Virus record (IMG/VR): IMGVR_UViG_3300049846_000469
Span: 1 to 23,596 of that record
DNA from: a virus
DNA: 23,596 nucleotides
Direction: 5' to 3' (one strand)
Below are positions 16,607-23,573 of this stretch, piece by piece. The translations under genes and the position numbers were made by a program. The notes under the pieces are model-generated. The model worked only from the letters and a program-made list of their open reading frames with translations, was not told where the DNA came from and ran no database searches. Within the stretch, counting starts at the first letter, position 1; each line of letters begins with the position of its first letter.

Positions 16607-16648
16607 TTATTTCCCCTTTCCTTTTCCTCTACGACATTTCTTTTTCAT
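16607..16648 (-). CDS. Possible 13-residue basic peptide overlapping the portal stop
   Basis: The ATG at 16648 overlaps the portal TGA in an ATGA junction and reads MKKKCRRGKGKGK before TAA at 16609-16607, one base ahead of the next ATG. Its start context AAGGAATATATG is identical to that of the scaffold and 151 aa genes. Eight of 13 residues are Lys or Arg. It may be a real micro-protein or a coupling device that hands ribosomes from portal to the 78 aa gene. Its shortness makes the call uncertain. Confidence 0.42.
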   Translation of the reverse strand: MKKKCRRGKGKGK

Positions 16649-18801
16649 ATATTCCTTGCCATAAGTTGCTCAGGAGTTTGTGGTTGCTCCGGGAGAATTC
16701 CGTTATTAACTCCCGCAGGCTGAGCTGGCGAAGGCAGCGGTCCCATATTTTCTTGAACGCTCGCTGATTGAGCTTGTGGATTATTTAGCAAGCCTTGAAT
16801 TTCTTCTTGTCCTTGCTGCATTGGCTGTTCTGGAGCTGCATTAGCCGGAGCTACGGGGCTACCACCTGGCGCACTAAGGGGCTGCTCGCCCAACATACTA
16901 AGAATATTTGCAACAGCAGGATTAGATAAAATGTCAATATGCTCTTGAATGTGGGCCAGGGTTCGCTGAACAAGTTCCGCGTCCATACGTAGATCAGGAT
17001 CAGCGAGAACAGCCTTATGCTCTCTAATATGAAGTGAATGAGCATCAGTGAGTACAGCCACCACGGGAGTTGAACCGTCCACAAGTCGTTCGCGTTCAGC
17101 TCTAACAAGCAAAAGCTCCTTGTTTTGACCTTCGGTCATTGTTTCGAGCTTGCCGGTGTTGATTACAGCAATATACTGCTCTGGGGTTGTAATGATACCC
17201 ATCTGCATCATCTGGCTTGCCATCTCTACGCGACCAGCGGTGGTTTGGGCAAGAGCGTTACCGGCATCTACGATGACTCTGGTAATGGAGGTTAAGTCGC
17301 TGGACGAGAATTCCTTCATATAAGTCACATTAGACTTACCCGCAATAGCCGCAACGCGAGGCGTTTTGGCGAATGTTTTAAGAAGCTCTACAACGTTAGT
17401 TCCAACGTCTTCAATCAACTGAATGTACGATTGCTGCAATCCGGAGATAAATTGCAGAGCTTGAGATTGAATTAATGCTAGAGCATTACCGGATTTAAGC
17501 TGAGACTCCGGGTTTCCTCGGGCTACCGAGTTAACTCCTGAGATAGTCTCCATCGCAGCTTCTAGCATTTTCAAAAAGTTAAAGATTTCAGCGGGTGTAT
17601 TGGTCAAGTTTAGAGGCTGGGGTGGCTTAAATCCAGGATTACCTTGGATAAAATTAAGGCCATCGGAAATTTGCTCCATCTGCACGTCAGAGCCGCGTTC
17701 CACGTAGACGTTTTGAACACCAAAGGCATTCTGGTTGGTCATAATGGTGGAGTATAGCGAGTTTACAGCATCTTGGATTGGAAGTAGGTCGAACATTGCG
17801 GTGTAGCTGAACGGAGTTCCAATAATGTCACGCGAGGCAATTCTGAAAATGGGAAGATTCTTGTACACAAGCACGGTGTCTTCTAGGACAACATCCTCGC
17901 TAAGATAGAGGACGTAGCGACCTTTTGGAAGTGCCTCTGTTGGGCGGTGGAAGAACTCGTACACTGGAACATCCGTGGTCTCGTCGTAAGCGGTCATGCT
18001 AACGCGGGACGTATTAATCTCGGACTTAGTCTTCAAGGCCTTAATCTTGTCCTCGAACTCCGGGTACTTGGCAATCATGTCGTACTTGTTCTTAAAAGAA
18101 CGGCACAGCTGCCAATCGTGCTTATTGTCGCTCTTGGTAGGATCAAATACTACATCAAAAGGCGACAGCACATTGAAAACAATGTCTCCGGAGTAGAGAG
18201 GTACACCTTCACGCAGAACCACTGGCTCGCCATCCTCGTCCATTTCATAAACTGGATTACCTTCGACATCAAACTGCTCAATTCCTTGCTCGTCCGTTAG
18301 AGGTTTGTATTCCGGTTCAATAAAATCATAAACTTCGCCAGTTGTGGCATTCCACTCCATTTTAATGTAGCCAGAGCCCATTACAATCGCAAATTCTACA
18401 GCCTTTTTTAGGTCTTGCTCCAAACGCTTATCTCGCATATAATACTCGAGGAGACCGTTTGCGAGGTTTGTTTGAATCTGAGACTTGACGTCAGTGTTGG
18501 TAGAGCGAGCTTGGAATGCTGGACGAGTGGCAGTGACCATTGTCAGAATGTGGCTAGCAATGTTGCCGTAGTGGTTCATCGGAAGATTGACCAACTCGCC
18601 AGTTTCTCCGCCAAACGTAATTGCATGGCCACCTTCGTAGTAAAGCCCGTAGTATGCCTGCCAGCTGCGCTTAATTTTGTCCAAATACGCACTTGACGTC
18701 ATTGAATTGAACCAAGCGTCCGATTTCTTTTGGAGATAGAGGACAAGCTCTTCTCCCGAATTGGCGGCGAAGTAAATGTCACCATTGGACTGCGTACTCA
18801 T
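16645..18801 (-). CDS. Portal protein, 718 aa
   Basis: The portal forms the dodecameric DNA gate at one capsid vertex. Identification rests on position directly after TerL, on length close to the P22 portal (725 aa), and on internal pattern: an N-terminal helical region (DKIKRSWQAYYGLYYEGG), wing-type strands with acidic loops (YEMDEDGEPVVLREG, FNVLSPFDVVFDPTKSDNKH), and a stem/crown helical core (LLPIQDAVNSLYSTIM, GNALALIQSQALQFISGLQQ, LIEDVGTNVVELLKTFA). The last ~90 residues are rich in Pro, Gln and Ala (PEQPMQQGQEEIQGLL, NNGILPEQPQTPEQLM) and probably flexible. ATG 18801 follows AAAGGATTTTAA and is preceded by motif copy C. The stop overlaps a tiny frame (ATGA). Confidence 0.88.
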   Translation of the reverse strand: MSTQSNGDIYFAANSGEELVLYLQKKSDAWFNSMTSSAYLDKIKRSWQAYYGLYYEGGHAITFGGETGELVNLPMNHYGNIASHILTMVTATRPAFQARSTNTDVKSQIQTNLANGLLEYYMRDKRLEQDLKKAVEFAIVMGSGYIKMEWNATTGEVYDFIEPEYKPLTDEQGIEQFDVEGNPVYEMDEDGEPVVLREGVPLYSGDIVFNVLSPFDVVFDPTKSDNKHDWQLCRSFKNKYDMIAKYPEFEDKIKALKTKSEINTSRVSMTAYDETTDVPVYEFFHRPTEALPKGRYVLYLSEDVVLEDTVLVYKNLPIFRIASRDIIGTPFSYTAMFDLLPIQDAVNSLYSTIMTNQNAFGVQNVYVERGSDVQMEQISDGLNFIQGNPGFKPPQPLNLTNTPAEIFNFLKMLEAAMETISGVNSVARGNPESQLKSGNALALIQSQALQFISGLQQSYIQLIEDVGTNVVELLKTFAKTPRVAAIAGKSNVTYMKEFSSSDLTSITRVIVDAGNALAQTTAGRVEMASQMMQMGIITTPEQYIAVINTGKLETMTEGQNKELLLVRAERERLVDGSTPVVAVLTDAHSLHIREHKAVLADPDLRMDAELVQRTLAHIQEHIDILSNPAVANILSMLGEQPLSAPGGSPVAPANAAPEQPMQQGQEEIQGLLNNPQAQSASVQENMGPLPSPAQPAGVNNGILPEQPQTPEQLMARNI

Positions 18802-18863: not shown

Positions 18864-20339
18864 CTACTTACCTTTTTTAGCCTTCCAGACCAGTGAAGAT
18901 AGCCAAGATTTCGTAGAGTTATCAGCCTCCTCTCTCTTATGCTGGGACTCAAACACATTGGAGCCGGACATGCTGCCATACCCCACTGGGTAGGGGTTTT
19001 TGCTTTTAATGATGTTCCGGTGGAGGTAGATTAGCGCAGCGAGGGCATCTGCGTGGCCGCCCTTAATTTCACCGGACGGGGAGTTCTTAAGGGGCTTAAA
19101 CTTGGTGCGAGTATTGTTCCACTGGGCAAACTTCATGTGGTATAGAGTGTGCTTACACCTTGGGTGGATTATCACTTTATGTTGAGACAGGGCTACATCC
19201 AGGGAGTTAATGGCGGCTTCCCGGTTATCCTTTCTAGTAGGTATGAAAATTATACCGTGGTCTCTTTGAAGATCGGTCAACATGATTAGGTTGTTGTTAT
19301 CTGCGATTCGCAAATACGGAGGCATGGGCGACTGATCTATGGGATTTACCCAAAGCTCAGCCTCTTTCTTCCTAACCTCCTCAGCAACGGTCTTTGTGTT
19401 GACGTCTTTACCGAAGATAAGCTCATCCTCTATAACTGTTGTGGCATTTAGATAATCGTAATACCCAAATACAATGGCTGTAAGGTCCGAGCCCCCAATA
19501 TCCATTGATACATAGGAGTCGAAGAATACTGGGCGAACATAATCAGCAGTCACAATCACGCGCTCACACTCAGAGTTAAACGAAGGAAGAATGGACGTGT
19601 CGGCACTTCGCACAACTTCGCACATATATTCGCGACGGAAGCCAGGGTCTTTATCACCTTCAGGATAATCATCTAGCGCGTCTTTGATGATAGCCTCTGT
19701 GAACTGCGGGTTATCGTAAATGGAGAACACTCGAATGCGATTCTCTGCCTGGTACTTCAGAACAAATTCTTGAATGAACTCATGGTTCTCAAATCGTGAT
19801 GGGGTTGATACCAGAATAGTTCTGCCGCGAGTCAGCTTGGTGGTAGGTGCCAGTACGGAGCGCACAGCATACGCTAAATCATCGCAGAACCCCGCTTCGT
19901 CCACGATGTTTAAGCTAGAGTTACCACCTCGGATATTTTCGATATTGCCATTATCCGATCCCGCCATTTGTAATTCGCTCCCATTTGGGAACTTGTAGAG
20001 CAAATCTGCTGCCATGAAGGTTGGCTTAAGGTGCTTTGGGCAGTCCTCCAGGATGGTTTTCATTACCGGAAGAATGTTCTTTTTGGCGGCTTTCTGCTTA
20101 GGAAACACGTACTTTACTATGGTGTCCGGGTTCTGCAGGCATTTTTCAATGCACATGGTCAACGCCAAGTATGTCTTGCCTAGACGACGAGCGCACATGA
20201 CGACGCTAATCTTGCTTTTGTCGTCGATAATGCCTTGCTTGATGATGGTTTGCGGAGTGGTAAGCTTCCAGTCTAGAATGCCCTGCTCCCAAAGTTGGGC
20301 AATAGCTTGCTCTCTGGTAACTTCTTTTACTTTGCTCAT
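18864..20339 (-). CDS. terL: Terminase large subunit (packaging ATPase-nuclease), 491 aa
   Basis: This motor pumps DNA into the prohead and cuts the concatemer. The N-terminal ATPase has Walker A ARRLGKT (residues 50-56), Walker B NIVDEA (144-149; D147, catalytic E148) and the coupling motif VSTPS (177-181). The C-terminal RNase H-like nuclease has three acidic positions: D280 in SMDIGGSD, D347 in RIADNN and D431 in GGHADALAALIY. Length matches P22 gp2 (499 aa). The ATG at 20339 overlaps the stop of the small-terminase candidate (ATGA) with little ribosome site of its own, so translation is probably coupled. All key residues are present; the gene looks intact. It is the last gene of its unit. 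Confidence 0.97.
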   Translation of the reverse strand: MSKVKEVTREQAIAQLWEQGILDWKLTTPQTIIKQGIIDDKSKISVVMCARRLGKTYLALTMCIEKCLQNPDTIVKYVFPKQKAAKKNILPVMKTILEDCPKHLKPTFMAADLLYKFPNGSELQMAGSDNGNIENIRGGNSSLNIVDEAGFCDDLAYAVRSVLAPTTKLTRGRTILVSTPSRFENHEFIQEFVLKYQAENRIRVFSIYDNPQFTEAIIKDALDDYPEGDKDPGFRREYMCEVVRSADTSILPSFNSECERVIVTADYVRPVFFDSYVSMDIGGSDLTAIVFGYYDYLNATTVIEDELIFGKDVNTKTVAEEVRKKEAELWVNPIDQSPMPPYLRIADNNNLIMLTDLQRDHGIIFIPTRKDNREAAINSLDVALSQHKVIIHPRCKHTLYHMKFAQWNNTRTKFKPLKNSPSGEIKGGHADALAALIYLHRNIIKSKNPYPVGYGSMSGSNVFESQHKREEADNSTKSWLSSLVWKAKKGK

Positions 20340-21555: not shown

Positions 21556-23325
21556 CTATCCTTGGCTTTTCAACGCCTGGAGGGCTTTAATGCGATTTTC
21601 AACGTCTGAACCCTCGGTGGCAGAAGTATCTACTGGTTGACCGGAGAAGCTTTCCACAACTGGGGACTTGCCTTGCTCCATTCGCTTCTGGCCAATGCGC
21701 TGCAGTAGCTTGCGATACTCAGGGTCAAAAAGCTCCGGAGATTTGTCGCGCAGAGCTGCCTCCTCCATAAGATTTGCGGTAATGTCCTCAGCTCCAATAG
21801 GTGCGGCGTAAGAAGCAGCGCGAGCGAGGGCAGTGTTGGTCTTCCCTTCCTTAATGTCCGCAGCAAGCGGAACTACGCCAGATGCAATAGCCAGTGGTCC
21901 TAACGCACGAGCGGCAGCAGTGGCCACTCCATGAGCGCGGTACATTTTAGGATTTTCGATTTTTTCTAGGTCTTCCGTGGCCCATTGAGGAAGAAGACCA
22001 GTCTTTTGCTCGGCATACTTTGTTTCTGCGGGATTTGCCCTGTTTGCCTCACCAAACGGCCCGAAGTTTACCCACGAGTTTTGACCGCGAGTTTCGGTTG
22101 CAAGGGCTTTTTGCGCTTCCGGGCTGAACATTTTTCTATGTGCCTGATAGGCCCGCTCTTCTCCAGTGGCTCCGAATTTATTATCGCCAGCAACGTGGCC
22201 GTAGTAATCATGGACCACGCGGAAAAGGTCGTTTGCCTTCATAGGCTTCCCATCTGGTCCAACAAAACGAGTTTCCTTCAATAGCGGGTTGCTTTGAGCA
22301 GCATCTGCGGCTCCGCCAGCTCCAAAACCGTCGTCCGTTGGAAAATATGCCATGTGCTTATTTTCGCGCACATCTTTTATTAAGTCCGCACTAGATTTGT
22401 ATGGATTTGGATAATCTTCGCCAATTTTAGAAAGCTTAAGACCTTTATTTTTCTGCAGGTCTTCAAATTGCTGTTCTGTTTCATCCATTAAAGCTTGATA
22501 TGCTTTTTGTACTTCCGGATTTGAAGGATCGTGCTTCATTGCTTCATAGGCGGAGGCAATCTTAGCCTGAGCACCAGGATTTGCTTTTACTGGAGCGTCG
22601 GTGTAGAGCCCTTTCATAGATTCAAGTACAGCACCAGCAGGTCCAGTTGTGCCTTTAAAATTTCCTGTCTTTAAATAGCTCTTTAATGCACCTAGACCGA
22701 ACGTGCCTTCTCGAAGACTTGGAATTTGCGCGTGATGCTTTGCGCCATAAAGTTCGTACACTTGGGCGGGGTCCATGTTTTTTAAGTCATAACCCTCTCG
22801 AACAAGCTTTCTAAGGGTTTCCAAATCTAGCTCTTCCGTAGCTTTTTTCAAAATCCTATCGTCATATTGATGCCCAGCCTCGTGTAACAACGTCCCTACG
22901 CCACGAGTTGGTCCGCCTTTTAAAAGCTCATTTTCATTGACAACTATGAGAGGGTTTTGCCGACTTTGCACTTCTGGCTGATAAAAACCAGACACGCTTT
23001 CGTCTAGCATATTTTTGATTTTCTTATCCGGTAATACCCGAACATCAGGTTCCAGTTCAGGATACCGTTCTTTCATAATACGAGCTAGAAAGTCTGCCTG
23101 CTTAGAAGGAGACGCTTCTTTTCCAGGGATTGGAATTCCTGTATTTTTTAAAACTTGATTGGCAAGGGCCTCTTCTGTAAAAGCCCTCGCTCGTAAGGCG
23201 TTACGCTCTACGTTGGAGTCTTTTTGGATATAATCTTCCGCAAAGGGCAGTCCCTGTTCTACGTCTTTTGCAAACTGCTCTAGTGCTTTTTTGCGAGCGT
23301 TCTCCACTACTCCCCACATTTCCAC
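21556..23325 (-). CDS. Large protein with zinc-protease-like HEAGH motif and a second His-rich conserved domain, 589 aa
   Basis: Residues 126-153 read LIVVNENEL then GVGTLLHEAGHQYDD: HEAGH (148-152) is the HExxH signature of zinc metalloproteases, preceded by a strand as in zincins. H197/H198 might supply a third ligand. Residues ~265-450 are a second conserved unit (DPSNPEVQKAYQALMDET ... NDLFRVVHDYYGHVAG ... EERAYQAHRKMFS ... TETRGQNSWVNFGPFGEANR ... QKTGLLPQWA), a block I recall from large phage and mobile-element polyvalent proteins, with H372, H377 and H396 as possible metal ligands. Residues 469-490 are hydrophobic and could enter a membrane. GTG 23325 (or ATG 23319) overlaps the upstream gene and has a poor ribosome site. 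It could be an injected or internal virion protein; the substrate is unknown. Confidence 0.8.
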   Translation of the reverse strand: MEMWGVVENARKKALEQFAKDVEQGLPFAEDYIQKDSNVERNALRARAFTEEALANQVLKNTGIPIPGKEASPSKQADFLARIMKERYPELEPDVRVLPDKKIKNMLDESVSGFYQPEVQSRQNPLIVVNENELLKGGPTRGVGTLLHEAGHQYDDRILKKATEELDLETLRKLVREGYDLKNMDPAQVYELYGAKHHAQIPSLREGTFGLGALKSYLKTGNFKGTTGPAGAVLESMKGLYTDAPVKANPGAQAKIASAYEAMKHDPSNPEVQKAYQALMDETEQQFEDLQKNKGLKLSKIGEDYPNPYKSSADLIKDVRENKHMAYFPTDDGFGAGGAADAAQSNPLLKETRFVGPDGKPMKANDLFRVVHDYYGHVAGDNKFGATGEERAYQAHRKMFSPEAQKALATETRGQNSWVNFGPFGEANRANPAETKYAEQKTGLLPQWATEDLEKIENPKMYRAHGVATAAARALGPLAIASGVVPLAADIKEGKTNTALARAASYAAPIGAEDITANLMEEAALRDKSPELFDPEYRKLLQRIGQKRMEQGKSPVVESFSGQPVDTSATEGSDVENRIKALQALKSQG

Positions 23326-23573
23326 TTTTTACGTGACCAATAATTGGCGGAAAGTTTACCTTCCCCGCCTTTAATTCCGCCGGATCGAGCGCAATAAGAT
23401 TTACGACGCTCTGGATTAGAAGTACCGTCAGGCATGCTAGGGTCTCCGAAGCGCACAATCTTTTCTTTTCCATCTTGGCAGCCTTTTACGACCCAAGATC
23501 GCCCCTCACCAGGAGTAGCTTTTGGACTATTGCAGCTAAGCTTTTCTTTTAGCCTTGACCATCGCTTTTTCAT
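23307..23573 (-). CDS. Small basic Cys-containing phage protein, 88 aa
   Basis: The sequence carries the phrases VVKGCQDGKEKIVRFGDPSM (residues 28-47), SNPERRKSYCARSGGIKG (52-69) and ANYWSRKKWKC (75-85). This GKEKI.RFGD ... NPERRKS..AR ... YWSRK.W pattern is recurrent in small phage proteins of unknown function. Four cysteines and many basic residues suggest metal or nucleic-acid binding. ATG 23573 lies only 3 nt past motif copy A and has no visible Shine-Dalgarno. No other start codon is evident before the conserved region. The 3' end overlaps the 589 aa gene by 19 nt. Confidence 0.75.
   Translation of the reverse strand: MKKRWSRLKEKLSCNSPKATPGEGRSWVVKGCQDGKEKIVRFGDPSMPDGTSNPERRKSYCARSGGIKGGEGKLSANYWSRKKWKCGE

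Follow-up and report, generated by a model that had tools for sequence, protein, structure and literature searches.

The open reading frame at 21,556-23,325 on the minus strand of the window, that is, of the whole stretch of DNA analysed (23,596 nucleotides, from a source record that is a 23.6-kb virus fragment), very probably codes for a compact polyvalent protein of a phage, in which two enzyme-like domains are independent of each other. One of them, N-terminal, carries a HEAGH motif; the other, C-terminal, carries an HDxxxH motif and belongs to a family that is widespread in phages and bacteria. As a complete proposal, to which we give somewhat less than even chances, the protein would be delivered by the virion and its C-terminal domain would be a metalloenzyme acting on S-adenosylmethionine (SAM), or on a product of SAM, against methylation-dependent defence.

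Gene position and domain architecture

As the first-pass annotation had reported, the frame is open on the minus strand and comprises 589 codons counted from the first in-frame GTG; residues are numbered here according to that reading, as they were in the annotation. The true start is probably the GTG at 23,307-23,305, which would yield a product of 583 residues; this codon is preferred because it shares nucleotides with the stop (TAG) of the preceding gene and agrees with the starts of two relatives, found in the stretches L002 and L169. The upstream gene (23,307-23,573, minus strand) encodes a protein of 88 residues assigned to phrog_7595. The genes for the large subunit of the terminase (18,864-20,339; PF03237, 2.4e-9; phrog_2, 1.1e-28) and for the portal protein (16,645-18,801; PF16510, 6.2e-13; phrog_156, 1.4e-26) lie on the same strand, and the reading frame adjoins these packaging genes, i.e., it is located in a late or virion-gene neighbourhood. 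It is from this position only that carriage in the virion is suggested, and delivery by the virion is a reading towards which we lean with some reserve. The closest relative of the terminase, with 29% identity, was found in a phage record from Silvanigrella aquatica; therefore, a Bdellovibrionota-like bacterium is a possible host.

The HEAGH motif is present at residues 148-152, and the separate histidine block, VHDYYGH...TETRGQNSWVNFG, was placed more precisely at residues 371-422; the positions previously assigned to H148, E149, H152, H372, H377 and H396 are correct. In the AlphaFold2 model of the whole protein, pLDDT values are 76-89 over most of residues 50-110 and 130-150, and 93-98 for most of residues 250-450, while they are mostly below 50 for residues 196-240 (22,606-22,740, minus strand), a segment that begins before the conserved N-terminal domain ends. 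Because of this profile, the two motifs are assigned to distinct domains with a loose connection between them. Each domain also occurs by itself: the N-terminal domain in a protein of 269 residues in L169, and the C-terminal domain in the bacterial copies. A single metal site formed jointly by both motifs was rejected, given that the domains are separable by the 196-240 linker and by their independent occurrence. In five giant polyvalent proteins the C-terminal domain and an HExxH domain are adjacent, with 34-43 residues between them and their order reversed with respect to the window protein; this recurrent pairing agrees with a delivered module accompanied by a processing peptidase.

The whole protein matched no family in Pfam, NCBIfam or PADLOC, sequence searches of the PDB returned nothing useful, and neither Foldseek nor VIA gave a useful match in the PDB for the whole model. 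Matches to augmin and DrrA in the PDB cover just N-terminal parts of the C-terminal domain, look like chance and were rejected.

A hydrophobic stretch had been described at residues 469-490. It is present in a weak form, with the best 19-residue mean (1.52) at residues 467-485; hydropathy and the model delimit a weakly hydrophobic helix region at residues 459-490 (21,856-21,951, minus strand), in which AlphaFold2 predicts a helix at 459-481 with low to moderate confidence. The C-terminus of the protein (21,556-21,600) ends in RIKALQALKSQG, and similar tails, such as RRAALEKLMRK, RRSAIEDLLRK, RRAALEKLGK and RQAALESLLKK, end several unrelated, successive proteins at L169:5010-8651 and L002:6718-7107, often after a hydrophobic segment. 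Judging from sequence, this common tail could possibly be a packaging tag.

The N-terminal zincin-like domain

The N-terminal domain comprises residues 40-218 approximately (22,672-23,208, minus strand), as delimited with the AlphaFold2 model, the profile of the metallopeptidase (MPTase) domains of polyvalent proteins, and the relatives in L002 and L169. Among proteins with this composition, about 1.5% would contain an HExxH motif by chance. The motif of this protein (22,870-22,884, minus strand) is kept in both relatives of its N-terminal half, as HEGAH in L002 and HEGGH in L169. Furthermore, D155, located three residues after the motif, as well as E191, H197-H198 and E206, are invariant across the three N-terminal domains. 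In the model, HEAGH is located in a predicted helix (residues 131-165) that follows a helix and strands, as in zincins, so that the strand-helix setting described by the first-pass annotation was recovered and the motif does not fall in a disordered region; the pLDDT of this helix is about 83-86 up to residue 150 and 62-67 beyond it.

The zincin-like identity suggested earlier is also supported by profile comparison. Aligned with hhalign to the HExxH segments of the giant polyvalent proteins, the profile of the three N-terminal domains scored 35.1 bits (74.5%), against at most 14.6 bits in 15 column shuffles. According to the text of Iyer et al. 2017 (PMC5512222) that was searched, the phage-type MPTase has an Asp three residues after HExxH, which D155 fits at the level of sequence, and it was proposed there that MPTase domains process polyvalent proteins. 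The usual third-ligand motif of these peptidases, HHE, reads HHA in this domain, within a KHHA motif in residues 191-206 (22,708-22,755, minus strand); the invariant E191 and E206 are candidate third metal ligands in the same region. As HHA stands in the place of HHE, peptidase activity is likely and not certain. From its sequence and predicted structure, the domain is likely a divergent zincin-like metallopeptidase of the kind present in phage polyvalent proteins.

Searches with this part of the protein were less informative: the domain matched no Pfam family, no phage sequence convincingly matched the N-terminal half when this was searched by itself, and a scan with the genes of the cassette that surrounds the L169 relative matched only its own contig. 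A match of the N-terminal half to a Vibrio phage exonuclease (E 8e-3) was discarded, since it covers 28% and excludes nearly all of HEAGH. The L169 cassette also encodes a second HExxH protein (L169:7713-8654, VLHEYAHSVDD), which likewise shows an Asp three residues after the motif.

The C-terminal HDxxxH domain and its relatives

The C-terminal domain comprises residues 246-461 (21,943-22,590, minus strand), as defined by its homologues and by a model of the domain alone with a pLDDT of 93.5 and a pTM of 0.90. Its only library match is PHROG_3170 (E 1.8e-19); no Pfam or NCBIfam model matched it, and a scan of 101 homologues revealed no convincing Pfam family. The domain is present in at least 592 of 600 viral stretches, among the matches listed, and in 81 of the 90 bacterial stretches matched (80 were kept), and it also matches 200 phage records. 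Since the HDxxxH block belongs to a domain of approx. 215 residues that is widespread in viral, phage and bacterial sequences, its occurrence is far beyond chance. No PDB chain was retrieved by Foldseek with this domain at E<=0.001, which is not in itself proof of a new fold, and VIA gave no useful match in the PDB (best second-look Z of 3.1). Weak Pfam matches of the domain to MATCAP were rejected as chance, as they fall within its residues 2-83, at a distance from HDxxxH.

Ten residues are invariant in the 101 homologues. Five of them, N365, R369, H372, D373 and H377, belong to the segment NDLFRVVHDYYGH (residues 365-377; 22,195-22,233, minus strand); the others are F384, G388 and E389 (these two at 22,159-22,164), and E411 and Q415, which delimit the segment E411-T-R-G-Q415 (22,081-22,095, minus strand). 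From these residues one metal site is predicted, likely formed by H372, H377 and E411: the metal would be held by the two histidines, both on one helix, and by the glutamate of a later helix, with D373, E389, Q415, R369 and N365 lining the site. H396, which had been listed among the residues expected to cluster, is kept in at least 90% of the copies but is not invariant. Thus, of the earlier suggestion of two metal sites in one protein, what stands is that the second block is a domain of its own with a conserved HxxxxH; H396 as a key ligand is not supported. We consider it probable that the C-terminal domain is a metalloenzyme.

It could be argued that this domain is a second metallopeptidase, in which HDxxxH would be the counterpart of the HExxxH of some zincins, devoted to cutting host proteins. 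In the model, a helix with H-x4-H comes after strands and is followed by a helix with a Glu, which is a zincin-like order, and polyvalent MPTases with HExxxH are reported in the text of Iyer et al. (PMC5512222) that was searched. However, the position of the base Glu of HExxH is occupied by Asp in all 101 sequences, hhalign gave 0.3% for the C-domain profile against the polyvalent MPTases and 0.2% against MATCAP, and the bacterial neighbours described below are metabolic or methylase genes; a second peptidase is therefore considered unlikely. A value of 99% against the MPTase segments was dismissed, because some of these segments included the end of the C-terminal domain, and the 0.3% was obtained once they were trimmed.

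The location next to the packaging genes could also indicate a protein that is mainly structural or involved in head maturation, with the conserved motifs as remnants, and the change from HHE to HHA suggests that the N-terminal domain may have lost its usual third ligand. Nevertheless, 156 of the 159 copies retain the core motif of the C-terminal domain, and this domain is also found in bacteria outside phages; a mainly structural role seems to us quite improbable.

When viral models were searched with Foldseek, small phage proteins 160-200 residues long were retrieved as well, and two of them were traced by length and position to ORF7 of LKA1 and gp6 of Percy, members of PHROG_7806. When the profile of 12 of these small proteins was compared with the C-terminal domain, hhalign gave 94.8% (E 5.5e-8), against at most 0.8% for 20 column shuffles and one reversed profile. 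All 12 have HDxxH, nearly all have D or E where the window protein has E411, and GQ is mostly kept; by sequence, the C-terminal domain is homologous to these proteins. They are encoded in the early region of Autographiviridae: in Pifdecavirus Pf-10 the small relative is the first gene after the sigma-70-like promoters, and in Pifdecavirus Nouni it is the first annotated gene. An early role brings to mind a non-catalytic blocker that binds a SAM-using enzyme of the host or a defence protein, as does the SAMase of phage T3, which also binds and inhibits the host methionine adenosyltransferase (PMC8406200). On the other hand, the invariant polar residues clustered in motifs and the stand-alone copies in bacterial operons indicate catalysis, and we assign a low probability to a domain that acts by binding alone.

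Genomic contexts, proposed action and known systems

In bacteria, 55 of the 80 loci of the C-terminal domain correspond to three operon types; the remaining 25 show none of these contexts and are mostly giant polyvalent or fragmentary copies. The first type (26 loci) includes a divergent N6 DNA methylase, accompanied by a Ser/Thr kinase in 24 and by a UvrD helicase in 20 of these loci, according to Pfam and PADLOC. The second type (13 loci) includes an enzyme similar to S-adenosylhomocysteine (SAH) hydrolase (SAHH), mostly together with DUF3293, for which a literature search found nothing. The third (16 loci), of methionine/SAM-cycle type, includes members of a cluster of SufS-like, Cys/Met PLP, UbiE-like methyltransferase, homocysteine S-methyltransferase and SAHH genes, although in two of these loci only the SufS-like gene is present. 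In a tree of the domain the copies from each bacterial context form a single group, and the protein of the window lies among the phage copies.

The organization of these loci deserves some additional description. In L144 (6125-12073) and 25 similar actinobacterial loci, the N6 DNA methylase, the C-domain protein, the Ser/Thr kinase and the UvrD helicase form a cassette that looks like an undescribed defence system; its kinase is similar to PD-T4-6 and mad6 of PADLOC, and in L144 the cassette is followed by a type I-E cas3. The three-gene operon that combines a SAHH-like enzyme with the C-domain protein and DUF3293 was found in Bacteroidota and Pseudomonadota (L113:6775-9114, L109, L106 and L117), and in Actinophytocola (L108:6711-9152) the three are fused in one protein of 814 residues. 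The SufS-like/PLP/methyltransferase cluster, seen in L121 (5919-12917), L125 and L150, is possibly a new pathway of sulfur or methyl transfer.

Each of the three contexts contains enzymes of SAM-dependent methylation or of the SAM cycle, and it is mainly because of these three separate contexts that a SAM-related substrate is proposed, a suggestion that we hold at just under an even chance. DNA methylases are common neighbours in defence regions, which counts against it, and neighbouring genes indicate a pathway rather than a reaction, so the three contexts could correspond to different substrates. In regard to the targets first considered, the genomic contexts favour SAM or methylation over the host envelope. 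The methionine-type cluster could encode a biosynthetic pathway in which an oxygenase is required, which would suit a domain similar to non-haem iron oxygenases, distantly related to or convergent with the aromatic amino acid hydroxylases (HDxFGH...E, a 2-His-1-carboxylate site) and with a small molecule different from SAM as its substrate. Bacterial phenylalanine hydroxylases do carry FHDVFGH, and the C-terminal domain scored 31.1 bits (21%) by hhalign against the hydroxylases, compared with at most 17.0 for shuffles; however, the small phage relatives gave 0.1% in the same comparison, the Pfam model PF00351 showed no match, and hydroxylases are absent from the Foldseek PDB list, an absence that does not exclude the fold. 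An oxygenase of this sort thus appears improbable.

In the mechanism that we favour, i.e., a delivered protein with a SAM-related metalloenzyme domain, the protein would be produced when the late genes are expressed, would probably be packaged into the head and would enter the cell along with the DNA. The N-terminal domain would be a peptidase like those proposed to cleave polyvalent proteins into functional parts, and it may free the C-terminal domain. The latter would then act in the cytoplasm on SAM or its product (SAH or an intermediate of the methionine cycle), and methylation-dependent defence of the host would be blunted. A broader view, in which the domain founds an undescribed superfamily of metalloenzymes of SAM or SAM products, employed by phages as virion-carried and first-gene anti-defence proteins and by bacteria in SAM-cycle operons and in a defence-like cassette, is speculative and rather doubtful.

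The C-terminal domain is present in hundreds of phage genomes and in several bacterial phyla, yet it has no Pfam or NCBIfam family. It has now been linked to enzymes of the SAM cycle, to a cassette with a DNA methylase and, in T7-like Pseudomonas phages, to the first gene, and these links would turn this orphan family into a testable idea. The bacterial copies that stand alone and the early phage ones, which are small and have a single domain, are suited to assays. By profile it belongs to PHROG_3170, for which the resources searched give no function, fold or active site. Phage records annotate members of this family as lysin, crystallin beta/gamma motif protein, RelA/SpoT or large polyvalent protein; no support was found for the labels lysin and crystallin.

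Among the known systems, the window protein resembles the phage polyvalent proteins, as these are described in the searched text of PMC5512222, in that it joins unrelated domains including an HExxH MPTase with an Asp after the motif, and in that its gene is near late genes. It differs from them in its small size, with two domains only, and in that HHE reads HHA. A domain with the HDxxxH...GQN signature was not found in the passages of that paper that were searched. With the aromatic amino acid hydroxylases (PF00351) the C-terminal domain shares H[D/E]xFGH on one helix and a downstream Glu, a similarity at the level of the motif only, as the family model gives no match. The resemblance to PHROG_7806, which includes ORF7 of LKA1 and the first-gene proteins of Pifdecavirus, extends to the core N..FR..HD.(2-3)H, GE and GQ motif; in contrast, the phages shown have HDxxH instead of HDxxxH, in a single small early protein. 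Finally, no sequence link was seen to the T3 SAMase, and the SAM lyase fold is absent from the Foldseek PDB list, an absence that is not an exclusion. Nevertheless, the T3 SAM lyase is the first viral protein expressed (PMC8406200), the small relatives have the same first-gene place, and the substrate proposed here is related; phages may carry a second, unrelated way of switching off methylation-based defence.
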